DNA of 32,711 bases, from the NCBI GenBank assembly GCA_017463935.1, contig JAFUEM010000029.1:1-32711 (forward strand), written 5' to 3'. Below the pieces are notes generated by a model. That model ran no database searches, had not been told where the DNA came from, and saw only the letters and a list, made by a program, of their open reading frames with translations. The first letter of the stretch is position 1. Each line of letters begins with the position of its first letter. The position numbers and the translations under genes were made by a program. Of the stretch, positions 8,304 to 23,673 are shown piece by piece. The stretch is from Kiritimatiellia bacterium (lineage in GTDB: Bacteria; Verrucomicrobiota; Kiritimatiellia; RFP12; UBA1067).

Positions 8304-9011
8304 TTATACCTCCTCCATCGGCATGGCGATAAAATCATTAAGTTCTTTCCGCAAGATCCTCCAGCGCGGCAATCGCCTGTCCATAAGCTCTACAAACGCT
8401 CTGGAATGGTTCGCCACCTCGAAATGCGTCAGCTCATGTACGACCACATACTCAATGCATCTTGCGGGCACTCTTCCAAGCGCGGCGTTGAAAACGATCT
8501 TGCCGCGTTTCTTAAGACAACTCGCCCACCGAGTCTTCATCTTCCTAATTTCGGTTTCGGGAAGAGCAAGCTTCAACTTCCTGCACCATGTTTTCATCTT
8601 GTCCGCAAGAGACTCACCCAACATCGCCTTCTGCCATGATTCGACGATCCTCTCCTTATGCCCTCGTGAAGCGCCCTCCCGCACGTACAACGACAGCTTG
8701 TTGCCGCCCCACGTCACCTTTTCCGTCGCATAACGATCTTCCACGACAACCAATAGTTTATACCTGCGGCCAAGGCAATAAATGCTCTCTCCGCTCACAT
8801 ACTCCCGGCGCGCCTGGCGAGGCTGGGAAAGAACAGTCTTCCGCTGGTCGCGTATCCAGCCAATCTTGGCTGCAAGAAAACTTCTCAAATCGCGGTCGGA
8901 AAGATCATCTGGCGCAGAGACATGTACCCTAGCATCCGGCGGATAGACGGCAAGATGAGTGTGCTTGATCTTCTTTCGCTCGACTTCAATCTGTATTCCG
9001 GCAATAGTCAT
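8304..9011 (-). CDS. YgjP/DUF45-type zinc metallopeptidase
   Basis: 235 residues of the YgjP-like family (SprT/WSS1-like gluzincin fold). The zinc site is HELTH (192-196) with a third ligand H202 in NHSRAF. The family motif before it, RKMKTRWASCLKKRGKIVFN (156-175), is intact. Family members are common neighbours of type I restriction genes, often directly after hsdR as here, but their substrate is unknown. The ATG at 9011 starts 4 nt after the hsdR stop. An earlier in-frame ATG at 9032 would overlap hsdR, and the short-gap start was chosen. No strong ribosome site is seen, so translation is probably coupled to hsdR. Confidence 0.87.
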   Translation of the reverse strand: MTIAGIQIEVERKKIKHTHLAVYPPDARVHVSAPDDLSDRDLRSFLAAKIGWIRDQRKTVLSQPRQARREYVSGESIYCLGRRYKLLVVVEDRYATEKVTWGGNKLSLYVREGASRGHKERIVESWQKAMLGESLADKMKTWCRKLKLALPETEIRKMKTRWASCLKKRGKIVFNAALGRVPARCIEYVVVHELTHFEVANHSRAFVELMDRRLPRWRILRKELNDFIAMPMEEV

Positions 9012-9015
9012 GACA

Positions 9016-12000
9016 CTACATCCAAGGTTCATCGCTCATGTAGGAGTCTGCGTCGAATTCACTTTGGTGTTCCACTATCTGGTAGACGGCAAGCGGGTTG
9101 AAATCAGTTCCCTGCAAGGCGTCCTCAATGGCCATTTCGACTTTCCTGCGGCGTATGGCATTTCTCCTAAAGCCGGGCTTGGCGCTTGCTCCGACAGCCT
9201 CGAACACCTTAAGCGCAAGGTCAGCATCGCCGCCCAGGTTGTCGCAGAGGCTGCGCTTGGCCTCGGTGTCCAGGCGCGGATCTTCAACTGACGCGTCGCC
9301 TTTCAGTTCCTTGCCCATCTTTGCGATTTCCGCAAGTAGCTTTCTGTATTCAATCTTCTCCTTGCGATAGTCTTCGAGAAGCCTGTTGATGCGTTCCGAG
9401 AACTTGCGGTACTCGGCTGGGTTGGTTTCTTTCTTTCTGAAGATGTAGCGTCTGACGTTTGCCACAAGCGTTTCCGCGACGCCGCGTTCGCCCCCGACCT
9501 CGGACTCCACGTCGGGATCAACCGAACCTCCGTTGTCTTTGTCGATTTTTATCAGATCGAGAAACGAAAGATCCTCGAGGTCGGCGAGTTTCAACGCATG
9601 CTTGGCCGTGACGAAATTGTCGAGAAGCGATCGCATCTCGGCATCGTAGAGCTTGAGGTCCACGAAATCGCCGGCTCGCTTCATGATCGCCTCGCGCAGC
9701 ATGTCGTAGTTGCGCACCTTCTCCTTTAGCGCAGCCGCCTCGGCGGGGGAGTAGCCGGCCTCGTCAGTTTCCTGCGCGATGTCGCTCCAAGCCCTTACTG
9801 CGGCGATGCAAGCCTGGTAGAAATCTTCACGCTGCTGCAAATCCCCGTCGCGGGCGACGAAGTAATCGCAATACGCGTCGAGACTCTTCGGCGGCAGTAC
9901 CGGTTCCGAAAGAATATCGCACCGTTCAAGAGCCGCTTCAAGCGCCTTGCGACCTTCTTCAAGCCGTCCCTTGAGGAGCCCCTCTACGTCTTCTTTCTCA
10001 AAGTTCTTGAACGCGCCATTGGTATAGTCTTCGACCGCGCCCCTTATGCTTTCGAACAGATGCTTGTAGTCGATTATGTAGCCATAGCGTTTCTTCTCGC
10101 CGTTGAGTCGGTTGACTCGGCAGATTGCCTGGAAGAGATTGTGGTCTTCCATCTTCTTGTCGATGTAGAGGTAGGTCGCGGGCGGCGCGTCAAAGCCAGT
10201 TAGCAGCTTGTCGACCACGATAAGCAGCTTCATCTTCGCCGGGTGTTCGACAAACTCCTTCTTCGCCCACTCCTCGAAATCCTCGGGTGTCTTGTCGCCG
10301 CGCATGGCAAGGTTCATCCTGTGCTTGTACTCGGCTTCCGTAAGCTGCTCGCCGGTGAACGCCTCGGAAAGGCCTGGCTCATCGCCGCCGTAGCTTGTAA
10401 CGACGGCACATTTATCCTTGAGCGGAGAGAGCACGTCGCTGAACATCGCCCAGAAACGATATGCCTGGTAAACCGACTCGCAAACAAGCATTGCATTGCC
10501 CCACCCTTCGCGCAGCGCAGGCTTGATCCCCATATCCATGCAGATGTCGGTGACTATCCGCTGTACACGCTCTTTCGCCGAAAAGAGATTCTGCATCCTC
10601 GCCCAGCGCTTCTTCAACTCTTCCTTCTTGGCGGGAAGAAGGTTCTTGGTTTTGCGCTCGAAGATTGAGTCAAATGTCACGTCCTCGGCAAGGTTCTGTT
10701 CGATGTCGCGCGCCTCGTAGCGCAGATCAAGCACGACGCCATCTTCTACCGCCTCGTCGAATTTGTAGGTATGGATGAACGGCCCAAAATTGGCATAGCT
10801 CGTAAGCGCGCCTTTCTCGCTCTTGAGAAGCGGCGTCCCCGTAAAGCCGATCAGCATCACGTCCGGGCCCATGATCTTCTTCATGGCAAGATTCATCACG
10901 CCGCCTTGCGTACGGTGGCACTCGTCGACAAAAACAAAGATATCGCCCTTCGCCTTGAAACCAGGCGGCAATTTGTCGGCAAGTTCCTTGAGGTAAACCG
11001 CAGCCGACCTTTCGCCACGCAGTCTGCGCTCTCGGGCATCAAGCTTCTCCTTTGGCCCGTTCGCGCCAAATTTGTGAATCAAAGTTGTGATAAGCCGCTC
11101 GCGCGACCCATTCAATGTTGCTATCAAGTCGGCGCCGCTTGTCGCGCGATATGGCTTCTCGCCGGCTTCCTTGAAGCCGTTTGTGATCTGCTTGTCGAGC
11201 TCGTCGCGGTCGGTGATTATCACCACCCGCGCATCGGGGCGATGTTCCTTGATCCACTGCGCAAGCCAAACCATCGTAAGCGATTTGCCGGAGCCCTGCG
11301 AATGCCAGATGATGCCCGATTCCTTGCGCATGATGCGCGGTTTCGCCGCCTCCAGCGCGAAAAACTGCGCGGGCCGCATCACCTTCTTCACTCCGCCGTC
11401 AAATACAACGCCGTCGTGGATAAAGGCAAGCAACCGCTCCTTGTCGAGCATCTGTAACATCGCCTTGTCCAGCAACGCCTTAACGCCCCACTTCTCAAAA
11501 AGCTCCGCCCTATCATGCGCTTCGCCGCGTGCGGGGTTCTGTCCTGCGCTTGGGCGCGTGCGCCCAAGTTCCCCGCCGCGTGCGGCGAAGTCCCCCCCGC
11601 CGCCGCAGGGCTCTTTCCACTTCACCCAGTATTTTTCAGGCGTAAGCGTAGTCGCATACTTCAGCCCCTCCGATTCATTGCCCGCCATCAAGAGCTGCGC
11701 CGCGGCAAAAAACGCCGGTATCTCCCCCTCTTGCTGATTGCGGTAGTTCTGGCGAATTCCCTCGGCCACGCTCACATTCGCCTTCTTTAGCTCGATCACG
11801 CAAAGGGCAATGCCATTAACCCAGATTACGACATCTGGACGGCGATGGCCGTTTGCCGCGACCTGCCGCCTTACAGTCACCTCCTCGGCTATGGAGAAGT
11901 TGTTTTCGAGCGGGTGCTGCCAGTCGATGAAATATACCTGTTTCATTGGCTTCCCCGGCTCGGTGGCAATCGGCATCGGGTATCTGAGGGTCAAATACAC

Positions 12001-12294
12001 ATCTTTGTTTACGCTATAGAGGTCGGCCTGACTCGGGCATGCCATGCGCTTCGCGAGCTCGGCTATTGCACGGTCGGCGTATGCAGGCTCGAGCTTCTGC
12101 TTGCCGACAAGAAACTCCTTCAGCGCCTGCCTGTCGAGACAGGTGTTCTCGCGCTCCGACAAGTTGCCAAGATACTCATAGCCAAGCTTTGTTCTCAGAA
12201 GCTCAATGATGCGATCTTGAACCGCTCGCTCGGGGGCAACCCCAGCGCTCGCGCCCGGACGCAAAACCTCGCCTTCAACCTTATTGTTTTCCAT
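9016..12294 (-). CDS. hsdR: Type I restriction enzyme R subunit (HsdR)
   Basis: 1092 residues; the DNA-translocating and cutting subunit of the type I complex. The nuclease site is D154 (RPDVVIWVNG) with E168-x-K170 (VIELKK). The helicase motor shows Walker A HSQGSGKS (331-338), the DEAD-box variant DECH (457-460) and motif III FTGTPL (484-489). The C-terminal half (about 700-1090) is the usual helical region that docks on HsdM. The ATG at 12294 has GAAGGGAG about 8 nt upstream and overlaps the stop of the previous gene by 14 nt; a GTG at 12312 is a weaker option. A low-complexity insert (about 229-259, GGGG..GRTRPSAGQN) is encoded by nested palindromes at 11520-11590 and is foreign to the family. 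Confidence 0.95.
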   Translation of the reverse strand: MENNKVEGEVLRPGASAGVAPERAVQDRIIELLRTKLGYEYLGNLSERENTCLDRQALKEFLVGKQKLEPAYADRAIAELAKRMACPSQADLYSVNKDVYLTLRYPMPIATEPGKPMKQVYFIDWQHPLENNFSIAEEVTVRRQVAANGHRRPDVVIWVNGIALCVIELKKANVSVAEGIRQNYRNQQEGEIPAFFAAAQLLMAGNESEGLKYATTLTPEKYWVKWKEPCGGGGDFAARGGELGRTRPSAGQNPARGEAHDRAELFEKWGVKALLDKAMLQMLDKERLLAFIHDGVVFDGGVKKVMRPAQFFALEAAKPRIMRKESGIIWHSQGSGKSLTMVWLAQWIKEHRPDARVVIITDRDELDKQITNGFKEAGEKPYRATSGADLIATLNGSRERLITTLIHKFGANGPKEKLDARERRLRGERSAAVYLKELADKLPPGFKAKGDIFVFVDECHRTQGGVMNLAMKKIMGPDVMLIGFTGTPLLKSEKGALTSYANFGPFIHTYKFDEAVEDGVVLDLRYEARDIEQNLAEDVTFDSIFERKTKNLLPAKKEELKKRWARMQNLFSAKERVQRIVTDICMDMGIKPALREGWGNAMLVCESVYQAYRFWAMFSDVLSPLKDKCAVVTSYGGDEPGLSEAFTGEQLTEAEYKHRMNLAMRGDKTPEDFEEWAKKEFVEHPAKMKLLIVVDKLLTGFDAPPATYLYIDKKMEDHNLFQAICRVNRLNGEKKRYGYIIDYKHLFESIRGAVEDYTNGAFKNFEKEDVEGLLKGRLEEGRKALEAALERCDILSEPVLPPKSLDAYCDYFVARDGDLQQREDFYQACIAAVRAWSDIAQETDEAGYSPAEAAALKEKVRNYDMLREAIMKRAGDFVDLKLYDAEMRSLLDNFVTAKHALKLADLEDLSFLDLIKIDKDNGGSVDPDVESEVGGERGVAETLVANVRRYIFRKKETNPAEYRKFSERINRLLEDYRKEKIEYRKLLAEIAKMGKELKGDASVEDPRLDTEAKRSLCDNLGGDADLALKVFEAVGASAKPGFRRNAIRRRKVEMAIEDALQGTDFNPLAVYQIVEHQSEFDADSYMSDEPWM
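11520..11590. repeat. Nested palindromic repeat inserted in frame in hsdR
   Basis: The centre is a perfect 20-bp palindrome CTTGGGCGCGTGCGCCCAAG (11549-11568). It is flanked by outer arms CTTCGCCGC (11520-11528) and GCGGCGAAG (11582-11590), which are perfect inverted repeats; a further 14-bp palindrome sits at 11574-11587. A 26-nt block around the central palindrome (11544-11569) is identical to 13144-13169 in the transposase-like gene. The segment keeps the hsdR frame open. Confidence 0.85.
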
Positions 12295-13543
12295 TGCTAC
12301 GACTCCCTTCACTAACCGCTTGCGCCACCGCTTCGTCGATGCCGCTCAGCACAACACCTTTGTAGTCGATTTCAACCGCGCCGTCATCGGCTATGAGCTG
12401 GGCAATGCGATTTAAGACCTGCGCCTCATGGCGCGTCATCGCTTTCTCGCCCGGCACATACGGCCAGCCAATCGGAGCGAGCATCAACAAGTTGCCCGCT
12501 GCGCACGTTTCGAAGAGCTTGCCGCCCGGTTTGTAGAGCGGCGAAAAGCCCTTGTTCTGCAGTGTTATCACGCGGTGCCCCGCCTCGAAGGCGCGGAGGG
12601 CGATCTCGCGCTCGCCATGGCTGATGCATGGGCTCAGCAATACCGCGCCTTTCGCCGCCGCGCGCATGGCGGCGGTCGCCTTTTCCTCAAATTCAGGCGT
12701 TGTTTTTTCAACAATCGGCTTGCCGACGGAATCGCGGCAGATTTGCCAACCGCCCGGCAACCGCCGGCGCTTATAGGCGAAATAGGAGCGCGAGCATTGA
12801 ATCTGACAGATAATAGGCCGTGTCAAAAGGAAGTGGTTGCCAATCGCCATAAAGTGGCCTTTAGTTGGGCCGCGCCACGGGGGAATACCAGCTCGCGCGC
12901 GAGCCGGCGCAAAACCCACCTCAATATCTCGCGCGACCTTAAAAAGCTCAGGGTGTGTCAATTTTATGCCAAGCCGCCGCGGGTTATCGCGAATATAGGC
13001 GATCATCTTCTCAAGCTGCCCCGCGCGAAAGAGAATCAAGTCAACATACCCAGGCGCCCATAACCTTGGCGCCTTGCCGCCCACTGCTTGCCCATTTTCC
13101 GCTTGGGCGCGCGGGGGTTCTGCGCTTGGGCGCGTGCGCGGTTCTGCGCTTGGGCGCGTGCGCCCAAGTCCCACCCCTGCGCGGCTCGTGCTTTTCGACT
13201 TGAAGCTCCCGATGATATTGCCCAGCTTTTTCTTCTGCTGCTCTTTTACGAAGATAATGCCGTGAAAGTGATCGGGCATCAGCTGGCTCTCGATTATCTC
13301 AACCCCCGGCCACTGCTGCGGAATCTCGCGCCAGCATTGCTCGACAACCCGCCCGATCTCGCTCGGCTCGACCCGCCACTCCTCGCCCTCGCCCACAAGC
13401 TGCCCCAAAACAGGCCGCGACCTGTCAGCAAGAATGATCGTGATCATGTAGATGCACCGCGAGGAATAATCCCAGTTGAAGCACCGCCGCCCCATGTGGT
13501 GCTTCACCTCCTGCCTCACTTCGCTCTTATGTTCAGCGGTCAT
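12281..13543 (-). CDS. Y1/REP-type transposase domain fused to a DprA-like Rossmann domain
   Basis: 420 residues. The N-terminal half (about 17-190) is a Y1 (HUH) single-strand DNA transposase domain: the histidine pair is in LMPDHFHGIIFV (H92, H94) and the catalytic tyrosine is in MIAYIRDNPRR (Y183). After residue 230 comes a different domain, with KGAVLLSPCISHGEREIA and PLYKPGGKLFE..LLMLAPIGWPY, that resembles the nucleotide-binding Rossmann/SLOG fold of DprA-type proteins. Two GC-rich inserts (about 125-156 and 211-226) are encoded by palindromic repeats. The gene overlaps hsdR by 14 nt and lies in the restriction operon, without insertion-sequence ends. The ATG at 13543 is kept; ATG 13495 with an AGGAGGTGA ribosome site is a good alternative. 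Function in this setting is unknown. Confidence 0.75.
   Translation of the reverse strand: MTAEHKSEVRQEVKHHMGRRCFNWDYSSRCIYMITIILADRSRPVLGQLVGEGEEWRVEPSEIGRVVEQCWREIPQQWPGVEIIESQLMPDHFHGIIFVKEQQKKKLGNIIGSFKSKSTSRAGVGLGRTRPSAEPRTRPSAEPPRAQAENGQAVGGKAPRLWAPGYVDLILFRAGQLEKMIAYIRDNPRRLGIKLTHPELFKVARDIEVGFAPARARAGIPPWRGPTKGHFMAIGNHFLLTRPIICQIQCSRSYFAYKRRRLPGGWQICRDSVGKPIVEKTTPEFEEKATAAMRAAAKGAVLLSPCISHGEREIALRAFEAGHRVITLQNKGFSPLYKPGGKLFETCAAGNLLMLAPIGWPYVPGEKAMTRHEAQVLNRIAQLIADDGAVEIDYKGVVLSGIDEAVAQAVSEGSRSNGKQ
12891..12904. repeat. GCTCGCGCGCGAGC palindrome in the transposase-like gene
   Basis: A perfect 14-bp palindrome inside the coding sequence. It encodes the odd low-complexity residues PARARAG in an insert between the transposase and Rossmann domains. 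Confidence 0.6.
13101..13168. repeat. Three tandem 23-24-bp units ending in the shared palindrome
   Basis: Units starting GCTTGGGCGC at 13101, 13124 and 13148 (spacing 23 and 24 bp). The last ends in the perfect palindrome CTTGGGCGCGTGCGCCCAAG (13149-13168) also found in hsdR. On the coding strand they read as repeated RTRPSAEP peptide units. The first unit carries a small deletion relative to the second. Confidence 0.8.
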
Positions 13544-13686: not shown

Positions 13687-15114
13687 CTAAAATTCATTAA
13701 TCATATGCATTGCCTCATCAATCTCTTTCATCAATTCTTTAAGACTAGGAACATACCCTACTCGTTCTGTAACTCTCTTAAAGAAGCATTTTATGTCTTC
13801 TGTCGAGAAACCTTGAGCAAAACACGGCAACACGGAAAAATCCTTGTCTGAGAGCTTGGCGTTCTTATCGTAAGCCGACTCCAACATATTGTCGAATTCT
13901 TCAACAAACTTGGTGTCGCCTGATGCGGCATAGTAAACCTTATACAAATACAAAATCAGCGTTGCGCCAGGCCGAGCTGTCGCCGGATAAGTTAGATCAA
14001 AATTTGGGAACAGGGCATCTACCAATTGGTTCGGCCTCAGCCTAAGCGATATGAAACGCTCATAGAAGTCACGATCTTTATGCAAATAGACAACTACTGC
14101 AACCGCAGCCAAGATAACCCAACTATGCGCCACCCCATCTTTTGCGAAGGCTATCAATGAGAACTTTCTCACCGCCTGTTCAATCTCACGTAAAGACAAG
14201 TCTTGAGAGTTAGACAAGCTCGTAAATGCCGTAGCAAACGAACTGACCGACGCATTGCTTCCTACATCCGACAAAAACTCTGCCAAATGAAGGTCTGCAA
14301 GCAAGTGTGAAATAAACAAATCCTTATCTGTTCGAGGGAGGTGAGTTTCAACATCAATAAGTCTGTGTAAATACCCATCAATATCAATATCGCCATATAC
14401 CGCCGATATAGATCGGCCTAGCTGCTCCTTATCAATTCCAAGCACAAAGACAATACCGGGAATAGCAAACAAATGTTTTATCCGCTCTAATAGCTCAATC
14501 GCATACGTTGGTCGACAACGATCTAATTCATCAACAATAATCAGCAGCGGTTTTTTCGTTTCTGTTGAAACAGCCTTACCCAACCGTTCAAAGGCATTCT
14601 TCAAATGTTCGCGCGATGCAACATCATCTTCATACGCTTGCATCAACTTCTCAGAGCACGACTCTAATTCATCTAGAGAAAGAGCATCGATATCAAGCCC
14701 TACCTTATTCTTCAAAATAGACTTAAAAATCGACAATCCTCCATGTTTTAGCAATGGGACTATCGCCTCCTTGATGCTATTTCCAATACTTTTATTAACA
14801 TCGTATCCCAACACTTGATTGAGCCGACAAGTCAACGCTACCAACGGATCATCAACGCAATCATCCTCCCAAGCATTGAAATATATTGCCCGACCGCCCT
14901 CGTTGGCATAATACTTCTCAAGACGCTTGAGAAAGAACGTCTTTCCCGTACCCCAACGAGAATTCAACGCCATTGTCAGAGGCCCTTGTTGCCCAGCAAC
15001 CATTCGAGCAAAAATAGGCACGTAGTATTGATGATTAAGGCAATCACCCTCCCAGAGCCTACCATCTTGAGGCGTCTGCTCACTATCGACCTTATGCTTT
15101 AGCTGATATGGCAT
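13687..15114 (-). CDS. Soluble KAP family P-loop NTPase
   Basis: 475 residues. Walker A NSRWGTGKT (51-59), the KAP hallmark IYFNAWEDD (77-85), and Walker B LLIIVDELDRCRP (190-202) place it in the KAP NTPases, a STAND-related group that includes the T7-excluding PifA. Unlike its neighbour it has no membrane segments between Walker A and B, although VILAAVAVVVYL around 335 is hydrophobic. The C-terminal third is helical with no recognised domain. The ATG at 15114 has AAAGGAG about 9 nt upstream; the gap to the previous KAP gene is 36 nt. Base composition is clearly more AT-rich than hsdR. Role in defence is inferred from family and context. Confidence 0.87.
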   Translation of the reverse strand: MPYQLKHKVDSEQTPQDGRLWEGDCLNHQYYVPIFARMVAGQQGPLTMALNSRWGTGKTFFLKRLEKYYANEGGRAIYFNAWEDDCVDDPLVALTCRLNQVLGYDVNKSIGNSIKEAIVPLLKHGGLSIFKSILKNKVGLDIDALSLDELESCSEKLMQAYEDDVASREHLKNAFERLGKAVSTETKKPLLIIVDELDRCRPTYAIELLERIKHLFAIPGIVFVLGIDKEQLGRSISAVYGDIDIDGYLHRLIDVETHLPRTDKDLFISHLLADLHLAEFLSDVGSNASVSSFATAFTSLSNSQDLSLREIEQAVRKFSLIAFAKDGVAHSWVILAAVAVVVYLHKDRDFYERFISLRLRPNQLVDALFPNFDLTYPATARPGATLILYLYKVYYAASGDTKFVEEFDNMLESAYDKNAKLSDKDFSVLPCFAQGFSTEDIKCFFKRVTERVGYVPSLKELMKEIDEAMHMINEF

Positions 15115-15150
15115 GTTCGGTTTCTCCTTTCCAATCGTTCTATATGTATA

Positions 15151-17253
15151 TCAACCAGCAAGGAACCTCCGATACACTAACGAAGCCATATCCAACACCT
15201 CGCCAGACCATCGATGATCCTTAGCTATTCTAGGAAGCGCTGCTCGTGTACGCGGCATCTTATCAAGAATAGTTTTAGGTAAATATTGTACCCCATAACA
15301 CTGTTTATCACGACCGAATTCTTTAGCGACATAAGCATCAAGATCATCATAATCACAGGTTGCATTCATCAATGGAAAATGCTCTTTCGCCGCATTCAAG
15401 AGTTTCAAATACTCGTCAACTGGCAGTGGCGACCGCACAAAATTACCGACAAGAGTTCTGCCTGAACTATTCAAAGCTTTCTCAACCGAAGTTGCAAATT
15501 GCACCTGTAGATTCTCGTTAAACATTGCATTCCCTTTTCCCCGCAAATGCGTTTCAAGACGCATATAATAGTCTTGCCATTTTGAGATGTTTGCAAACAT
15601 CAACGCCTCGCCAGTAGAAATTGTCGGGAAAGAACCATGAGCCATGACTATCTCATCCTTCTTTACATCATAATATTCGTCCCAATATTTCTGTGCATCC
15701 GGCGTGTCGATAGTTGACAACGCCTGCGGCACCATCTCAAATTGTTTCACATGCTTAATCACCGACGAAAACACTTGATGGAAGTCTGGTTGCCTGCAAA
15801 TTCCACCCAGCGACATGTTGCCGTCAAGCGAGGCTCCTACCCTTTGATAAGTGAGAATTGCTGCCGCATGTTTTTCCGGCAGTTGATACACGACCGCAGC
15901 CAATTGAGTAGAATGATTAAGATCCCCCAAATACCACATACGTGCGATCTTGCATTCATCAGGTATGAAGGCACCGCCTACAATCAACAATTCAGCATTA
16001 TCAATTTTATCCGCAATTTGGCTCCTGCGCCATCCCAAGACATATAACGCCACAATGCTGAGCGGGACTGGAAACTTCGCTTTCTCATCGCCGTCATACC
16101 GCAACCCGTCATAGACAGACACCATGTCATTAATAAAAGAAATCATAGCCCGGGGCGTTAAGTCGTCAGAGCGATGCAGCCAATCAAACACTCTAACAGC
16201 CTCCGATAGTTGTTGGTCATCGAAACCATCGAACGCCATCTCCATCCGCTCTAGCAGGAACATTGACCAATCCGTCATTATGACAGCAGGCATCACAAAT
16301 ACCTTGTCTACAACTTTTCTGATGTACTCATCCCCTGCCTGTGACGATCCAAAAGCCTTTCGCATTCGTGTGCGATCATACGGAATTATTACCTGCACAT
16401 TCTGGGGCCGATGCGTTCTGCGCTCTGCAAACAACACATGTGTCGCCGTCCAAAATTTCTGAATCTCTTCATCATTTAATCTATCAAGGTTATCAAAAAT
16501 CAATATGACATATTTATATCCATCGCTAAGTCTTGTCGCCACCTCTCTTAAAAAATCAAGGAAATCCGACACCGAAGGTTCGTCCAAATGCCTGAACTTC
16601 ACAAAGGAGAAATCCTTAGACTTTCCAGACGCAATCATTAGTGACCTACCAACTGAACTCCAGAACCCAACACCATTATATAGCCAATTCAATAGCACAG
16701 AACCAATAAAAGTCGCACAACCAATCCCTAACAGAATACTCGCCAACCAATCCGGCACTCCAAACAGTTTCGTTTTAAGAATTGAACTTACTGCCACAAG
16801 TATCACGGACATCCATCCGAAAAGCGGAACCTTTTCCACATAACCATGCACTCGCTCGCCTGTCAGATGAAACAGTTTGTCCTTGAAACCTTTGGGCAAA
16901 ACTTTTTTGTCGTCAACCAACTCTGCCACAATTGATTCCAAGATGGATTTTCGCGAAAGATCCTGGCGGTGCATCCATAGGTCATAAGTGACAAAGACTG
17001 CTTCAGCTTTATTCTCTTTGTGCGCGCCAAGCGTATGACCAATTTCATTCTCCGCCATTTTGAGAACATTGGATTTTCCACATCCCCAAGGTCCCTCCAA
17101 TGCCATTACAACCGTATGCTCCCACTCCCGTCCCTCCGGCCCCATGAACGTTGACGGATTCTTGATTTCAGCCACAATGCGCTTAGCAAGGGCCGTCTGG
17201 GCCTTGCCATCATACCAATCCTCACCAATCGGTTCGTTTGTAAGATGTTTCAT
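15151..17253 (-). CDS. Membrane-anchored KAP family P-loop NTPase
   Basis: 700 residues. Walker A GPWGCGKS (54-61), then two transmembrane segments (about 142-162 FGWMSVILVAVSSIL and about 169-191 WLASILLGIGCATFIGSVLL), then Walker B VILIFDNLDRL (249-259). A pair of membrane helices inserted between Walker A and B is the classical KAP layout and puts the ATPase on the inner face of the membrane. The region after 400 is long, helical and not recognised; it could sense or act on phage components. The ATG at 17253 with AGGGA upstream is preferred over a GTG at 17274. It follows the AbiTii-like gene by 69 nt and precedes the second KAP gene by 36 nt. Confidence 0.88.
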   Translation of the reverse strand: MKHLTNEPIGEDWYDGKAQTALAKRIVAEIKNPSTFMGPEGREWEHTVVMALEGPWGCGKSNVLKMAENEIGHTLGAHKENKAEAVFVTYDLWMHRQDLSRKSILESIVAELVDDKKVLPKGFKDKLFHLTGERVHGYVEKVPLFGWMSVILVAVSSILKTKLFGVPDWLASILLGIGCATFIGSVLLNWLYNGVGFWSSVGRSLMIASGKSKDFSFVKFRHLDEPSVSDFLDFLREVATRLSDGYKYVILIFDNLDRLNDEEIQKFWTATHVLFAERRTHRPQNVQVIIPYDRTRMRKAFGSSQAGDEYIRKVVDKVFVMPAVIMTDWSMFLLERMEMAFDGFDDQQLSEAVRVFDWLHRSDDLTPRAMISFINDMVSVYDGLRYDGDEKAKFPVPLSIVALYVLGWRRSQIADKIDNAELLIVGGAFIPDECKIARMWYLGDLNHSTQLAAVVYQLPEKHAAAILTYQRVGASLDGNMSLGGICRQPDFHQVFSSVIKHVKQFEMVPQALSTIDTPDAQKYWDEYYDVKKDEIVMAHGSFPTISTGEALMFANISKWQDYYMRLETHLRGKGNAMFNENLQVQFATSVEKALNSSGRTLVGNFVRSPLPVDEYLKLLNAAKEHFPLMNATCDYDDLDAYVAKEFGRDKQCYGVQYLPKTILDKMPRTRAALPRIAKDHRWSGEVLDMASLVYRRFLAG

Positions 17254-17322
17254 TTTAGAAGTTCCCTGTTCCACTGTTAGTAATACGACACAGCACTACA
17301 TCCACCACCATTCCTCAGTACA

Positions 17323-18216
17323 TCACTTGCCAACGCTTTGGGCGTCTCGCACATGATCAGACTGAGGAGCCTCATGTTGCAAACCGCGAGGCCCCAACTT
17401 ACTTTTCCCGTCGCTCTTAAAGAACAAGAACAAAAACACGATCAGGACAACGGCCAACATAATCAATATACGCCAATCACGAAGCAATGACAACGGCCCT
17501 TTTTCTAATTCCACTCTCGAATGTGAATCGTCACGCGACACGGTTGCCTTGGCTGCGAAACCCATCGCCGTCGACTGATTTACCGTGCAATTAGTATTTC
17601 CAATGGCAGCGGTGGTGCCCGTACCATTTATATTAACAGTGACATCTGATGTCGACATCGATTTTCTCTCCTTTTTCGTAGGTTTTGGAAATTGACTGAA
17701 TGCAACTCGTACATGATCTCTGATTGCATACAATAGATTTATGATTTCGCTTTTATTGCATACACAGCAAACATTCTGATACTGGCCAGCACCAACTCGA
17801 CTCCAGCAAGGAACTGAAAAATCCTCATATTTATGCAGTATTAGTTCAGAAGGCGAAGCCCGCAACATGTCCTCCAACACAAATACAGATTCTCCAACAT
17901 AGTATTGGCCATTAGCACACAAATCGAAACCGCCACTAAGTTCTCTGTAGTCTATTTTTTGTTTTTGCCACCGCCTTGATCCGACAAGCAACACATCTGC
18001 CACGTTGTATGCGTTAATAATACGATACGATGGCGTGACACCAGAACCCACACATTGAGAACTTAGCTCCTTATTAACCCACTCAAGTTCGTCGGAACTT
18101 TCACCTTCATTCAATGACGCCAAGAACGCTCTGTACAAATTCAACAAAGTCGATACCGGAACTTCAGAATCTGCAAGTGCTAACTCAGTTCTCAAATACA
18201 AACTCAAATCATACAT
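17323..18216 (-). CDS. AbiTii-like protein with C-terminal membrane anchor
   Basis: 297 residues. The N-terminal 175 residues resemble the AbiTii abortive-infection domain: an acidic helix with LEWVNKEL (44-51), TPSYRIINAYNV (61-72), a strand and helix with VFVLEDMLRASPSEL (111-125), and a final IINLLYAIRDHVRVAF (158-173). A low-complexity Asn/Thr-rich strand region (DVTVNINGTGTTAAIGN, 191-207) follows, then one transmembrane helix (about 248-267, RILIMLAVVLIVFLFLFF) and a short charged tail. The ATG at 18216 starts 3 nt after the hsdS stop and its GGAGG ribosome site is inside hsdS, so it is tightly coupled to the restriction operon. The domain call is by motif memory and less certain than the topology. 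Confidence 0.65.
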   Translation of the reverse strand: MYDLSLYLRTELALADSEVPVSTLLNLYRAFLASLNEGESSDELEWVNKELSSQCVGSGVTPSYRIINAYNVADVLLVGSRRWQKQKIDYRELSGGFDLCANGQYYVGESVFVLEDMLRASPSELILHKYEDFSVPCWSRVGAGQYQNVCCVCNKSEIINLLYAIRDHVRVAFSQFPKPTKKERKSMSTSDVTVNINGTGTTAAIGNTNCTVNQSTAMGFAAKATVSRDDSHSRVELEKGPLSLLRDWRILIMLAVVLIVFLFLFFKSDGKSKLGPRGLQHEAPQSDHVRDAQSVGK

Positions 18217-18219
18217 TAG

Positions 18220-19461
18220 TTATGCCTCCAGCCTTGTCTTCCCCGTTAGCAGTTCCTGCATCATGCCTTGCTTGATGCTTTCGTACTTCGCACGGTCGGC
18301 CTCAAGCGCCGCGATCTCCGCATCCATATCTGACAGCACCGCCGCAATCGCCTTCTGTTCGGCAAGGGTGGGTGGAACAGACAACACTATCTTTTTCAAG
18401 TCCTCAAGCGTTATACCCTTAATTGAGGTGCCTTGCGTTTCCTCTTTCTTTGACAGCATGACAACAGATATCAGAAATGCCAGAAACTTATTATCGCATT
18501 GTGCTGAAACGAGGTTTGCATAGTCTTGACTTGTGCATACAGGTTCTGTTGCAATGGCAACTTTTCCTATTCCGACACATGTAACTATATGAATGGTGCC
18601 CCTTGGACAGATGCAAGCGGCAGAATTTACAATTCCATCATTTGAAACAAAACGAGTCTTTGACACATTCCAAATGTTTCCCTCTTCTATATCCGACGAG
18701 GAAATCCATGGAACGCTTCCCTGCCAGTAATGAGGAATGTCTGTTGAGGGCGTTCCACCTCCTAACCAAGTCCCACATTCCCCCAACCGCTTCTCCACCC
18801 ACTTGCCTTTAAACCCCGGCAGGCGGGTTTTGCCGGTGAGCAATTCTTGCATCGCGCCGGTCTTGATGTTGCGCTTTTTCTCGATGAGTTTCCCCAACGC
18901 CGAAATCAACTCGTCGACATCCGACAACGCCCTCGCGATCCTCCGCTGCTCGACGAGAGGGGGAAGAGGGAGCTTTAAATCACTCAGAATTTTTTGATTC
19001 AGATTTACAAGCGTAGTTCCCACCGCCTCGCCATTTAAAGAAGCAACAGATGTTGGGGTTCGTAGATATAACGCGATATAACTTGGACAACAACTCTCTT
19101 TGAGATGCAAGAAAAAGCACCCTGTTCCACACAGCCACCCATTTTCCTTCTCTCCAACCAACGCTGCACGCCCCATTTCCCCTCGCCGCCCAACAACAAT
19201 ATCGTCCTGCGATAATTTATAAGCAGACAATCTATGTTTCGTTGAGTCATCAACTGTCATATCAGCAGACGGCTCTATCTTGCCATCTTGTATATGCATT
19301 GGGTTAATCAATGGCGTTCCATTTTCGATATAATCTTGCGCATGTAACGAAGACCCAAATGGCCCGGTTTTAAACGAAGACCAAAGTTCCCCCAGTCGTT
19401 TCACCTCCCAATCCACAGGGATTGGGCCGAGTTCACTAGACTTAAATTTCGTTGCTTTCAT
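18220..19461 (-). CDS. hsdS: Type I restriction-modification specificity subunit (HsdS)
   Basis: 413 residues made of two target-recognition domains, each followed by a conserved helix. The repeat layout is visible: EQRRIARALSDVDELISAL..MQELLTGKTRL (171-214) and EQKAIAAVLSDMDAEIAAL..MQELLTGKTRL (about 368-411) are the two spacer helices that set the distance between half-sites. The recognition domains (about 15-165 and 220-360) differ, as expected for a bipartite target. It would direct HsdM methylation and HsdR cleavage. It starts 8 nt after the helical gene at 19470. No inverted copy or spare recognition domain lies nearby, so there is no sign of specificity switching. Confidence 0.95.
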   Translation of the reverse strand: MKATKFKSSELGPIPVDWEVKRLGELWSSFKTGPFGSSLHAQDYIENGTPLINPMHIQDGKIEPSADMTVDDSTKHRLSAYKLSQDDIVVGRRGEMGRAALVGEKENGWLCGTGCFFLHLKESCCPSYIALYLRTPTSVASLNGEAVGTTLVNLNQKILSDLKLPLPPLVEQRRIARALSDVDELISALGKLIEKKRNIKTGAMQELLTGKTRLPGFKGKWVEKRLGECGTWLGGGTPSTDIPHYWQGSVPWISSSDIEEGNIWNVSKTRFVSNDGIVNSAACICPRGTIHIVTCVGIGKVAIATEPVCTSQDYANLVSAQCDNKFLAFLISVVMLSKKEETQGTSIKGITLEDLKKIVLSVPPTLAEQKAIAAVLSDMDAEIAALEADRAKYESIKQGMMQELLTGKTRLEA

Positions 19462-19469
19462 TTTGCTCG

Positions 19470-20288
19470 TCAGCCTGCGTTGATGCTCTTACGGAGTTTC
19501 TTGATGCGCTCGTGCGCTTCAGGATATTTCTCCAACTCAATCAACAATAGCATCGACCTAAACAGATCATCATAGGCCGACTCCAACTCCGCTGCCGGCA
19601 ACTGCTTAAGCATAGGCTTTGCAACCTTTCCCTCTTCATTGTTGTGGCGGACATGAAGGTTGTTGAGTCCAAAACGAACATCATCGGCAACATCATACTT
19701 CAAACCCTCAAATTCCTTATACCGCTGAATAATCGGCTCGACATGCTTGCCTATAATGAACAACAACTTCTGCTTCCCCTCAAGATCGCCGTTAGATTCA
19801 ATTCGATTATACGACAGGACAGCAGACGCAACATCCACCTCTGTTAAATCTTCAATTACAGCCGAAGCCAACGCATCTTTCTTCACGATGGATATTATTC
19901 CATCTGAACCCTTATCGATGCAATACCCCGTCTTGTCCAATATTAGGTTGATATTCTCTTGGATTCGCTCTCGCAAAGCTTCAGCAGATTTATTAGTCCA
20001 CGGTTCGATCTCCATAATCTCCAGAAGATTTAAGATCATCTCGCAATAAAACAGCAATGCCATGAGAGAAGGATGCTTCCACTCATGCGAACATTCATTT
20101 ATAAAATCATCTATCGATATTGCCGTCCTTCTCAGCGCACTCTTTAGAAAGTCACCGGCAATATACTTTTTAAGTGTGTACTTATAAATGCTAATGCTGA
20201 ACTCTTGACCCTGAAACAAATATTCTATTCGCTTCCGCTCTAGTTCAAAGTCCTTGATTTCCATGTTAAGTAAATCGCGTAAATGCAT
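19470..20288 (-). CDS. Unrecognised helical protein inside the restriction operon
   Basis: 272 residues, soluble and mostly helical by composition, with no signal peptide or membrane helix. Recurrent features are LLFYCEMILNLLEIM (about 78-92), LLFIIGKHVEPIIQRYKEFEGL (174-195) and LNNLHVRHNNEEGK (about 207-220). The last element recalls the His/Asn-rich ends of some abortive-infection and HEPN-like proteins found next to restriction genes, but I cannot assign a family, and a strict HEPN R-x4-6-H motif is not clear. The ATG at 20288 with AAAGGAG 7 nt upstream is preferred over a TTG at 20306. It lies 20 nt after rhuM and 8 nt before hsdS, so it is produced together with the modification enzyme. 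Confidence 0.75.
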   Translation of the reverse strand: MHLRDLLNMEIKDFELERKRIEYLFQGQEFSISIYKYTLKKYIAGDFLKSALRRTAISIDDFINECSHEWKHPSLMALLFYCEMILNLLEIMEIEPWTNKSAEALRERIQENINLILDKTGYCIDKGSDGIISIVKKDALASAVIEDLTEVDVASAVLSYNRIESNGDLEGKQKLLFIIGKHVEPIIQRYKEFEGLKYDVADDVRFGLNNLHVRHNNEEGKVAKPMLKQLPAAELESAYDDLFRSMLLLIELEKYPEAHERIKKLRKSINAG

Positions 20289-20308
20289 GTTTATGCTCCT
20301 TTCCAATA

Positions 20309-21373
20309 TTATTTATCTTTAGACTTCTTTATCTCCTCTTCAAGCGCGAGGAGGTAGCGGTCGTAGTCGCTCATGAAGAGCCGGTCTTGCACGATGCGGT
20401 ATTTCTCAAACTCGTTTTCAGCATGTTCTTCCGCAATTGCAGCGGTCACATTCTCCACCTGTTCAATCGTAATCGGACCGTCCCAAATTGCCACAAACTT
20501 GTCAAGGCGCTTCTCCCACGCCTCCATCGTCATAGGGATATGCCGAAGCGCGGCATTCTCCGCAAACTCCAGGTAGGCATTGACTAGCCTCTCAAGCATT
20601 CCGAGTTCATCTTCGCTCAAGTAGTTCTTGGCAACGACTACGTCGCTCTTGCGAATCTTTCCGTTCGGCGAAGCCGCCCAACTGTTCAGCCCCATGTGCT
20701 CCTTCGCCGCGTCGGCACGCGAAAAGATGATTTGGGCAGCCGCAAGGCCGTTGACAGCCCGGTGCATCTTGTTCTGGACTGTCGCAAAGAATCGCCGCGT
20801 CCGAAATGCCTTGCTGTCGTAATCTATGGCAGTCGCGTAGATGTCCGTCACCTTCTGATAGAACTTACGCTCGCTCAGGCGTATTTCGCGAATATCTTCA
20901 AGGAGACGTTCAAAATATTGACTTGAAATCGGAGAACCATCCTTCATTCGAGGCTTGTCGAGGACATAGCCACGAATCGTGTACTGTGAAACGATCTGGT
21001 TGGCCCACTTTCTGAACTGCACCGCCCGCTCATTGTCAATCTTGAAACCAAGGGCGATTATAACTTGAAGATTGTAATGTTTTACGGCATAGTTTTTGCC
21101 ATTATCGGCAACTATTAAAATTTCTTTAATAGTTGACGCCTTATCAAGTTCGGCGTCTTCGTACAATTTACGCAAGTGATAGGCGATGTTCGGTACCTCT
21201 ACGCCATACACCGCCGCGAGCATCTTCTGGCTCATCCAGATATTCTCGTCTTCGTAGCGTATTTCATACCGCTCGTCGACAGCACCGACAGAGGCAATAT
21301 AAGTAATGAACTGGGCCGCGCTCGACTTCTGCGGCTCCATGTCGTCCCAACCGCTCTTTTTCTTCTTTGTCAT
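20309..21373 (-). CDS. rhuM: RhuM family protein
   Basis: 354 residues. The N-terminal RhuM domain is clear: RYEDENIWMSQKMLAAVYGV (39-58), VPNIAYHLRKLYEDAEL, YNLQVIIALGFKIDNERAVQFRKW and VSQYTIRGYVLDKPRMKDG, followed by YFERLLEDIREIRLSERKFYQKVTDIYATAIDYD. RhuM was named after a Salmonella pathogenicity-island gene. Homologues are frequent between hsdM and hsdS, and the N-terminal half looks like a DNA-binding phage-regulator fold, but the molecular role is unknown. GGAGG precedes the ATG at 21373 by 6 nt, and only 11 nt separate it from hsdM. A second, broken RhuM start lies at the island edge (25741-25848). Confidence 0.88.
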   Translation of the reverse strand: MTKKKKSGWDDMEPQKSSAAQFITYIASVGAVDERYEIRYEDENIWMSQKMLAAVYGVEVPNIAYHLRKLYEDAELDKASTIKEILIVADNGKNYAVKHYNLQVIIALGFKIDNERAVQFRKWANQIVSQYTIRGYVLDKPRMKDGSPISSQYFERLLEDIREIRLSERKFYQKVTDIYATAIDYDSKAFRTRRFFATVQNKMHRAVNGLAAAQIIFSRADAAKEHMGLNSWAASPNGKIRKSDVVVAKNYLSEDELGMLERLVNAYLEFAENAALRHIPMTMEAWEKRLDKFVAIWDGPITIEQVENVTAAIAEEHAENEFEKYRIVQDRLFMSDYDRYLLALEEEIKKSKDK

Positions 21374-21384
21374 CGGCTACCTCC

Positions 21385-23673
21385 TTACTGCTGAGCACCC
21401 TTCACCCCTACCCCCATCCCAGCGAGGTGCGACATTACCTTTTCGCGCAAAGCGGCGACATCGGCCTCAAGCGACGCAAGCGGTCTGTCGTAGCGGTCGG
21501 CGAGAGCCTTTACCTCTGCGGCGATTTGCGAGAACGTGCGGTCAAGCTCCGCGTCGAAGCGCCGGTGCAGTTCCTCGACCCACTTGTGGTGAATGACGAG
21601 GTCTTTTATCCCATCTTCCGCAAGCTTCTCGTAGACGCGCTCAATCTCCCACGCGAAACGCTTGTCATCTTCGCGCAGATCCTTCTTGAACAAAGATATG
21701 CTTTTCTTCAGCTTTTCGGCCTCTTCAGGGATTTCGTCGTCTTCGCCAAGCCCTTCGGTCAATTCGGCGTATTGCGATTCAAGGCTTTCGAGCTCTTCGA
21801 CGCGCTTCAGGTAATTTTCGTAAATTCCGGCGCACCGCTCTTTCGCCACGACTTCGGGCGGCAGAAGGTCGCACTGAAGGTCGCGCCAGCCAGACGACTT
21901 CTTCTTGGGCTTTACGAGCCTGGCCAGCCAGCCATCGCGGCAGATGAGATAGCAATCATCTTGCATGGTCTCGGCCCAGTAGTTCATCAGGTGCTCGTAG
22001 AGAGCATAGGGGGTAACCAGAGACGCGCGCGCGCGCAAAAGCTCTTCGCCCCATTCTGCAATGATTTTCTTTGGCTCTGCACCTCGCTTAAGGCCAAGCG
22101 CCTTGCGAGTGAAATCACCGAGCCAACCGGCGCAGGCGCTTTCAAACGCCTCGATCTGATCTGCCATTTCATCGCCTTCCCGCAGTTCTTCGACAATGTC
22201 TTCCTGCGGCAGCGCCAGCGTTACAAAACCCCTGCGAAGCGGCTTGAAAAGGCAAGCCGGATATTTAGCCGCTTCTTCAGCCGGTATGCCGCCATTGAGG
22301 TGGGCCGTCAAATCTTGCCTCACATCTTTGTCGGCCGGAGCGACATAGCGCGGTATGTTGAGGTTGTAGTCGTTTGCCTCGATGTCGGCATACTTCACGA
22401 ACTGCGCGTAATGCGGCACATTCTCGCCGGCGTTCCAGACATCGACAATGCGCCTTACGTCGCTTTCGCGCAGGCGGTTCTTCGCGCCATCCTTGGCGAA
22501 ACCTTCCTTCGCGTCGATCATGAAGATGCCTTTCGACGCCGCCGCGCCCTCCTTGTCGAGCACGATCACACAAGCGGGGATGCCCGTGCCAAAGAAAAGA
22601 TTGGGCGGCAACCCGATGATGCCCTTTATCCAATGGCGGCGCACGATGAACTTCCGTATCTCCGCCTCGGCGTTTCCGCGGAACAAAACGCCATGCGGCA
22701 GAATCACGGCGGCGTGTCCGCTCGGCTTCATCGACTTCAGTATGTGCAGCAAAAAGGCATAGTCGCCGCACTTCAGCGGCGGTACCGGCGCGACGCCCTC
22801 GCCATGCCCCCAGCGCCCGAAGGGGTCTTCCTCGCTCGCACCCTTGAGCCAGCTCTTGACGGAAAACGGCGGATTGGCAACTACATAGTCGAATGTGCAG
22901 AGTTCGCGGTCGTTGCGCTTGTGCAAGGGATCGGTCAGCGTGTCGCCATGCCTGAGATCGGGATCATCGACTCCGTGCACGACCATCGACATGCGCGCCA
23001 TGCCGATGGTGGCGACGTCCTTTTCCTGTCCCTGTATGGCGACAGCCCCTTTCGCCTCCGCCGCCGCGCGAAGGAGAAGCGACCCAGAACCGCAAGTCGG
23101 ATCGTAAATCGAGATCATCTTGCGCTTGTCGTCGCCGATGCCAATCACCTTCGCCATTACGCGGCTCACTTCGGCAGGCGTGTAGAACTGGCCTTTCGAC
23201 TTGCCTGACTGCGTGGCGAAGTTTTTCATCAAGTACTCGTAGGCGTCGCCGATCAGGTCGTCGTCGGCAGCGCGGTTGTTAGAGAAGTCGAGGTCTTCGT
23301 CCTGGAACACGCCGATGAGTCCACTCACGGTATCGACGAGATCCTTTCCCTTGCCAAGCTTCGTCTCGTCCGCGAAGTCGGCGTTGTTGACCACGCCTTC
23401 GAGATCGTTCGCCTCGGCGATGCGTCCGAGTATGACGTTCATCTTCTCGCCGATGTCCTTGCTGCCCTTGAGAAGAACGAGGTCGTCGAAGCTGCATCCC
23501 TTCGGCAATTCAATCAAAAGCGACTTGTCGCCAGATTTCTTCTTGTCGCTCAGGTACTTTATGAACAGCACCACCAGCACATAGTCCTTGTACTGGCTCG
23601 CGTCCATTCCGCCGCGCAGCTCGTCGCATGCTTCCCAGAGCTTGGAATAAAGCTGTGATTTCTTAATTGCCAT
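21385..23673 (-). CDS. hsdM: Type I restriction-modification DNA methylase (HsdM)
   Basis: 762 residues; N6-adenine methyltransferase subunit. The N-terminal helical domain (1-150) is followed by GQFYTP (161-166), the AdoMet motif I DPTCGSGS (191-198) and the catalytic NPPF (267-270), all intact. The C-terminal 300 residues are long and coiled (about 600-750) and would pair with HsdS and HsdR. The ATG at 23673 has GGTGGAGGTG ending 6 nt upstream and overlaps the preceding gene by 11 nt, which argues for coupled translation. The length is above the usual 500-550 because of the C-terminal extension, as in the longer HsdM branch. Confidence 0.95.
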   Translation of the reverse strand: MAIKKSQLYSKLWEACDELRGGMDASQYKDYVLVVLFIKYLSDKKKSGDKSLLIELPKGCSFDDLVLLKGSKDIGEKMNVILGRIAEANDLEGVVNNADFADETKLGKGKDLVDTVSGLIGVFQDEDLDFSNNRAADDDLIGDAYEYLMKNFATQSGKSKGQFYTPAEVSRVMAKVIGIGDDKRKMISIYDPTCGSGSLLLRAAAEAKGAVAIQGQEKDVATIGMARMSMVVHGVDDPDLRHGDTLTDPLHKRNDRELCTFDYVVANPPFSVKSWLKGASEEDPFGRWGHGEGVAPVPPLKCGDYAFLLHILKSMKPSGHAAVILPHGVLFRGNAEAEIRKFIVRRHWIKGIIGLPPNLFFGTGIPACVIVLDKEGAAASKGIFMIDAKEGFAKDGAKNRLRESDVRRIVDVWNAGENVPHYAQFVKYADIEANDYNLNIPRYVAPADKDVRQDLTAHLNGGIPAEEAAKYPACLFKPLRRGFVTLALPQEDIVEELREGDEMADQIEAFESACAGWLGDFTRKALGLKRGAEPKKIIAEWGEELLRARASLVTPYALYEHLMNYWAETMQDDCYLICRDGWLARLVKPKKKSSGWRDLQCDLLPPEVVAKERCAGIYENYLKRVEELESLESQYAELTEGLGEDDEIPEEAEKLKKSISLFKKDLREDDKRFAWEIERVYEKLAEDGIKDLVIHHKWVEELHRRFDAELDRTFSQIAAEVKALADRYDRPLASLEADVAALREKVMSHLAGMGVGVKGAQQ

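Follow-up and report, generated by a model that had tools for sequence, protein, structure and literature searches.

The window, i.e., the whole 32,711-nt stretch analysed here, is one contig of the 2.79-Mb draft genome of a gut-type Verrucomicrobiota bacterium. On its minus strand, genes follow one another in an operon-like order: hsdM, a RhuM-family gene, a gene for a 278-aa protein, hsdS, an AbiTii-like gene, two KAP NTPase genes (KAP1 and KAP2), a REP-transposase-like ORF, hsdR and a gene for a YgjP-type peptidase. The successive gaps from hsdM to the YgjP-type gene are 11, 2, 8, 3, 48 (69 from the likelier KAP1 ATG), 36, 143, -32 and -17 nt. The features are located as follows:

21385-23706, minus strand: hsdM, type I methyltransferase subunit (PF02384, 3e-97; PADLOC MTase_I, 1e-270)
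20309-21373, minus strand: RhuM-family protein, PADLOC candidate PDC-S05 (PF13310, 4.5e-92; PDC-S05, 2.8e-130)
19470-20306, minus strand: 278-aa protein (no family match; distant relatives in genomes G053 and G081 at E about 1e-23)
18220-19461, minus strand: hsdS, type I specificity subunit (PF01420, 7e-46, in two stretches)
18225-18229, minus strand: GGAGG ribosome site of the AbiTii-like gene, within the final hsdS codons (by sequence inspection)
17323-18216, minus strand: 297-aa protein with a putative remote AbiTii domain (about residues 12-185; hhalign to an AbiTii profile), a low-complexity linker (VNINGTGTTAAIGNTNCTVNQ) and a C-terminal TM helix
17413-17469, minus strand: residues 250-268 of the 297-aa protein, TM helix (mean hydropathy 2.91; helix 248-269 modelled at high pLDDT)
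15151-17274, minus strand: KAP1, KAP NTPase with two membrane helices (PF07693, 69 bits; AF2 pLDDT 80)
17071-17094, minus strand: KAP1 Walker A, GPWGCGKS (G, GK and S invariant in 28 aligned sequences)
16690-16833, minus strand: KAP1 membrane-helix pair, residues 148-166 and 177-195 (same pair in the six relatives checked)
16480-16509, minus strand: KAP1 Walker B, VILIFDNLDR (D, N and DRL invariant in 28 aligned sequences)
13687-15114, minus strand: KAP2, soluble KAP NTPase (PADLOC candidate PDC-S20, 1.4e-95; PF07693, 113 bits)
12281-13543, minus strand: REP-associated tyrosine-transposase-like ORF with an extra C-terminal region (NF047646, 1.7e-9, under its cut-off)
9016-12312, minus strand: hsdR, type I restriction subunit (TIGR00348, 8e-141; PADLOC REase_I, 8e-288)
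8304-9032, minus strand: YgjP-like metallopeptidase, 3′ of hsdR (PF01863, 4.7e-55)

The presence of hsdM, hsdS and hsdR in one operon, with TIGR00348 and TIGR00497 above their cut-offs, identifies a type I restriction-modification (R-M) system, which looks intact because the three subunits match their families along their length. The original prediction placed a trio of genes between hsdS and hsdR, and these are indeed consecutive minus-strand ORFs (18216-17323, 297 aa; 17274-15151, 707 aa; 15114-13687, 475 aa). Additionally, we found that the REP-transposase-like ORF (13543-12281) separates KAP2 from hsdR and that the RhuM and 278-aa genes separate hsdM from hsdS. The RhuM gene (PDC-S05), between hsdM and the 278-aa gene, occupies a second embedding place in the same operon. 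The ribosome site of the AbiTii-like gene lies, as had been proposed, inside the end of hsdS, where GGAGG at 18229-18225 falls in the last codons, 8 nt 5′ of the ATG. A promoter and terminator scan returned about as many sites as shuffled sequence.

The trio had also been described as more AT-rich than hsdM and hsdR, and with GC fractions of 0.44, 0.45 and 0.43 against 0.578 for hsdM and 0.565 for hsdR, this holds; hsdM, the transposase-like ORF and hsdR all fall between 0.565 and 0.591. Nevertheless, the AT content of hsdS (GC 0.478) and of the 278-aa gene (GC 0.424) is close to that of the trio, so composition does not separate the trio from hsdS. The AT-rich segment extends over about 13.7-20.3 kb, hsdS included, and no cassette inserted after hsdS is marked by composition.

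Both KAP assignments were borne out by PF07693 (69 bits for KAP1 and 113 bits for KAP2, cut-off 20) and by the presence of Walker A and B motifs in both proteins. In KAP1, the membrane helices at residues 148-166 and 177-195 are positioned, as predicted, between Walker A (at 61) and Walker B (at 256). The ATG at 17253 is the more likely KAP1 start than the GTG at 17274, because a relative begins exactly there (MKILSNEPIG vs MKHLTNEPIG); this start would give a 700-aa protein and a 69-nt gap. The KAP1 search of 145 relatives found a full-length homologue (32%) in G040 and, besides it, two distant ones, and the nearest KAP1 relative lies on a contig titled uncultured Verrucomicrobia. Compared with its relatives, the window protein lacks about 350 C-terminal residues and, therefore, may work differently or be reduced. 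In the AF2 model of KAP1 (pLDDT 80), the NTPase core (residues 1-422) was nearest to RdrA of RADAR and to ORC/Cdc6, with Z about 13-15, a match that would indicate an AAA+/STAND-like NTPase core and no more.

The proposed relation between KAP proteins and the phage-excluding PifA was supported at the family level, since all 28 aligned KAP1 family members matched the PADLOC PifA profile (best 5e-19). KAP1 and PifA of the F plasmid are alike in being KAP NTPases that match this profile, but the match of the window protein is weak (2.8e-6) and restricted to residues 45-122. Neither a dedicated PADLOC model nor an NCBIfam model for the KAP1 relatives was found in the copies searched. Tmn, an experimentally anti-phage KAP NTPase of E. 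coli, has two transmembrane domains and a mechanism that is unexplained (PMC11846954). KAP1 fits this description of a single KAP NTPase with two membrane helices (residues 148-166 and 177-195), a likeness drawn from the description and not from sequence; it differs in that it is 700 aa long and embedded in an R-M operon.

KAP2 contains the motifs SRWGTGKT (Walker A) and LLIIVDELDR (Walker B) and aligns with PDC-S20 over nearly its full length (residues 18-448 of 475, profile positions 13-440 of 464 in PADLOC). It is a member of this candidate family (1.4e-95), from which it shows no notable difference. Neither KAP1 nor a recognised AbiTii gene accompanies the KAP2 relatives at five loci (L036-L040) and on five plasmids, and KAP2-type proteins usually stand alone. 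The one partial exception is a plasmid of Burkholderia glumae (locus L156, 5840-10275), which encodes a tandem pair of KAP NTPases, 95 nt apart; the leading one bears membrane helices at its N-terminus and the second is PDC-S20-like. A second KAP at locus L056 was rejected as a KAP2 partner and is probably QatA, since the genes after it look, by inspection, like qatB, qatC and a gene for a TatD-type DNase.

The 297-aa protein had been described as an AbiTii-like protein with one C-terminal membrane helix. The helix was recovered at residues 250-268 (mean hydropathy 2.9, pLDDT about 92), while the AF2 model of the whole protein has a pLDDT of 39 and is usable for this helix alone. The AbiTii identity stood as remote homology and fell short of Pfam-level membership. 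In the HMM search proposed as a check, PF18864 (AbiTii) did not match the protein even at an E-value of 10 and had no match in its own genome. Because the Pfam search was negative, we carried out a profile comparison with nulls, using an AbiTii profile built from 16 aligned proteins, i.e., four Verrucomicrobiota PF18864 matches and 12 tblastn relatives on plasmids. Here hhalign gave a score of 40.9, a probability of 73% and an E-value of 3e-5, with columns 10-207 collinear with residues 12-204. The best of 200 shuffles of the protein scored 25.2; among some 500 other ORFs, only L020, itself a candidate relative, ranked above the window protein and the others reached at most 32.2; and the unrelated 278-aa neighbour scored 16.2. 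A same-genus protein from genome G008 (L020/L125) forms a bridge, with 94% to AbiTii and a pairwise E-value of 4e-5 to the 297-aa protein. Residues W46, E50, P62 and R65 of the AbiTii N-terminal half, which are invariant in the alignment, are kept in the window protein. One highly conserved glutamate has been named for AbiTii (PMC3710099).

Based on these comparisons, the 297-aa protein appears to be a remote AbiTii-like domain, below the Pfam level, joined to a C-terminal membrane helix. It shares with AbiTii (PF18864) the collinear N-terminal domain with invariant W, E, P and R, but the GY motif reads SQ and the C-terminal part is replaced by the linker and the TM helix. Among the 145 relatives, a convincing AbiTii-TM gene was present only in the window and in G008. 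An AbiTii-membrane gene lies behind hsdS in two other Verrucomicrobiota, with differing partners. The order in G008 is hsdM, hsdM, hsdS, AbiTii-TM (265 aa) and a Ser/Thr kinase gene, while G474 has hsdS, an 85-aa piece (motif IGNNNTIKNS and a TM helix), AbiTii and a SIR2-like gene, an arrangement that resembles a split form of the predicted fused AbiTii-TM protein of the window. Weak matches of the 297-aa protein in G004, G036 and G052 were discarded, as all contained in-frame stops and covered the C-terminal half alone. An ORF at locus L061, adjoining a KAP1 relative (phmmer E 0.008 to the 297-aa protein), was likewise rejected; its match is limited to 68 residues, and the ORF seems to be the C-terminal portion of that KAP, split off.

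The original prediction regarded the trio as a conserved neighbourhood. Searching from all three proteins, we found no second locus with all three genes among the 145 relatives, 84,980 species (by pattern), 72,556 plasmids or IMG/VR. Within the sensitivity of this search, homologues of the trio never co-occurred outside the window, an outcome that the prediction had itself counted against the idea. The parts each occur elsewhere with other partners, and a single new three-part system is not supported. The window proteins did not qualify for MADS, reaching 51 bits against 720 for MAD2 and 42 against 400 for MAD5 (NCBIfam), nor for Qat, since QatA scored 24.6 and 51.3 bits against a cut-off of 600 and no other qat gene appeared among the ten proteins scanned. 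The window offers a novel assortment of genes at a type of site that was already known.

Defence genes embedded in type I R-M operons are already known, and genes in such positions give phage protection (PMC11411939, PMC12255303); these precedents agree with the position of the trio inside a complete type I operon. The EPEC RRDM island has the order rptR, hsdM, hsdS, darT2-darG2, hsdR and an M48 peptidase gene, and its hsdS-hsdR site was termed a potential recombination hotspot (PMC12255303). For guilt-by-embedding, PMC12255303 refers to Payne et al. 2024. The island and the window are alike in having defence genes between hsdS and hsdR and a metallopeptidase gene after hsdR (M48 vs YgjP-like), but the window cargo is AbiTii-TM, KAP and KAP, with extra RhuM and 278-aa genes. 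The PADLOC PDC families are reportedly derived from the work of Payne et al. 2024. TgvAB, a nuclease pair of type IV (GmrSD-like), has no relation to the trio. It lies within the VPI-2 type I R-M cluster of V. cholerae and protects against modified-DNA phages independently of HsdR (PMC11411939). The window resembles this case in its embedded genes, and the action of TgvAB against modified-DNA phages that escape restriction is the functional model that we propose here; on this analogy, the predicted firing of the trio upon restriction failure would be plausible.

Other members of the family to which the window belongs carry different genes in the hsdS-hsdR space. In G053 and G081 (L163, L164), it holds a relative of the 278-aa protein, a protein kinase, DarT and a macro-domain DarG-like protein, so a kinase-DarT-DarG version of the EPEC pocket exists in the same family. 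At positions 2927-9668 of L164, and in L163, the relative of the 278-aa protein, the protein kinase, DarT, the macro domain and hsdR follow hsdS; the two loci belong to different genera and are near-identical, and, therefore, point to recent transfer or cross-binning. The pocket of L057 contains, by inspection, an AAA/RloB-like pair and KAP1. Locus L120 (2609-16774) presents hsdM, an ORF6N-like gene, hsdS, a multi-TM protein, KwaB, a KAP1 relative, further genes and hsdR; the multi-TM protein and KwaB appear to form a Kiwa-like pair inside this type I operon.

The new point of our analysis concerns the KAP1 relatives, which were gathered by similarity alone, with context ignored, and reduced to 50 loci by removal of near-duplicates. 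Restriction genes of four types (I, IIG, III and ISP) recurrently have a KAP1-type membrane NTPase gene immediately after them. R-M genes, assigned by Pfam, accounted for 11 of the 27 genes directly upstream on the same strand: hsdS in five cases (L010, L049, L057, L090 and L107; gaps of -4 to 21 nt), identified by Pfam Methylase_S and assigned to loci by position and annotation; a type III res-like gene in four (L043, L108, L115 and L118); and a type IIG (Eco57I/TaqI) gene (L042) and a type ISP gene (L041) in one each. The gaps between KAP1 relatives and restriction genes are often below 35 nt, and locus L107 has exactly the order hsdM, hsdS, KAP, hsdR. For comparison, a control set of 41 genes lying over 3 kb from KAP1 relatives included no R-M family among the 25 families listed; this set left out 37 further distant genes, at least one of which is R-M (hsdM of L046, in the same operon). 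The Fisher p for near versus far R-M genes, on lists assembled under different rules, was 8.5e-6 for the genes scanned; counting one distant R-M gene raised it to 5e-5, and the pessimistic case of 8 R-M genes among 78 distant genes to 1e-3. In a crude search with the Hsd proteins of the window, a recognisable hsd gene was present at 8 of the 50 non-redundant loci and absent from 42. GmrSD_N, RloB, KwaB and HipA are further neighbours of KAP1 relatives, whose surroundings are, therefore, defence-rich. KAP1 relatives are also common on conjugative elements of the tetQ/rteC type without R-M genes. A near-identical relative is found in many Bacteroidales species; it adjoins tetQ and rteC at L015 and lies directly behind a DUF4143 ATPase gene at L062, and at these and other loci it is probably cargo of a conjugative element.

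Taking these results together, we find it fairly probable that the type I R-M operon is intact and has, in its hsdS-hsdR pocket, second-line anti-phage cargo that is modular and exchangeable and not a three-part machine. In this explanation, KAP1 would be a P-loop NTPase anchored in the membrane, akin to PifA and Tmn, and belong to a group recurrently found behind restriction genes; KAP2 would represent the soluble, free-standing KAP NTPases of PDC-S20; and the 297-aa protein would be an AbiTii-like domain tethered to the membrane by its C-terminal helix. A defence role calls for caution with the RhuM protein (PDC-S05) and PDC-S20, which are PADLOC candidates only. Beyond layout and motifs, we infer a mechanism in which the modification and restriction subunits would act first, and phages escaping restriction through modified DNA or anti-restriction proteins would be sensed by KAP1 or by the AbiTii-like protein. 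KAP1 might then respond at the inner membrane with an NTP-driven change that halts the infection, probably through membrane damage or cell shutdown, and the cargo would in this way cooperate with HsdRMS.

An obligate three-component system, with the AbiTii-like protein as membrane-tethered sensor or effector and the KAPs as a hetero-complex firing when restriction fails, would accord with the tight same-strand spacing, the coupled start, the membrane helices in two of the three proteins and the Burkholderia glumae plasmid that pairs a membrane-type KAP with a PDC-S20-like KAP 95 nt apart. Nevertheless, we consider it quite unlikely, given that no second locus has all three genes, that the KAP2 relatives at L036-L040 and on four of the five plasmids have no second KAP neighbour, and that AbiTii-TM relatives are partnered with a kinase or SIR2 instead. 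The same exchangeability of cargo is expected if the genes are passengers in a permissive insertion pocket that use the R-M promoter without any joint function with each other or with HsdRMS, since the pocket of relatives holds quite different genes. The AT-rich composition, suggestive of foreign origin, the transposase-like gene in the same pocket and the proposed hotspot nature of the hsdS-hsdR site (PMC12255303) point in the same direction. However, the R-M types whose restriction genes have a KAP1-type neighbour are unrelated and come from different organisms, and fewer than 35 nt often lie between the two genes. A type I pocket that was simply permissive would leave this pattern unexplained; we therefore judge the passenger explanation unlikely.

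The position of KAP1 relatives after the specificity or restriction gene of several R-M types could also be expected if KAP1 or the AbiTii-like protein were an accessory R-M subunit that anchors or regulates the restriction enzyme at the membrane, and not a separate defence. This seems highly improbable, as no recognised hsd gene was near the KAP1 relatives at 42 of the 50 non-redundant loci (crude search) and PifA and Tmn have been studied as defences in their own right (PMC8594841, PMC11846954). With regard to our preferred explanation of exchangeable second-line cargo, a broader version is tempting though doubtful, namely, that KAP1-type membrane NTPases serve restriction systems in general as partners and as a safeguard when restriction is evaded, acting here with the membrane-tethered AbiTii protein. 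If true, an NTPase family attached to four R-M types would suggest functional dependence and not a mere insertion hotspot. The KAP1-restriction loci constitute a concrete, testable set for asking whether restriction failure triggers a membrane response, and L107 is the simplest of them.

The REP-tyrosine-transposase-like ORF (12281-13543) probably does not belong to the defence cargo. Its C-terminal part is unassigned but DprA-looking, and the ORF overlaps the start of hsdR by 32 nt. A REP-like palindrome, CTTGGGCGCGTGCGCCCAAG, is located at 11541-11577, within hsdR, and at 13117-13177, within the REP-transposase-like ORF, and is translated in frame within both ORFs as LGRTRPSA-type peptides. 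Apart from these two sites, the 18-nt core has no exact copy in the genome, and among 62 other genomes one has a single copy.
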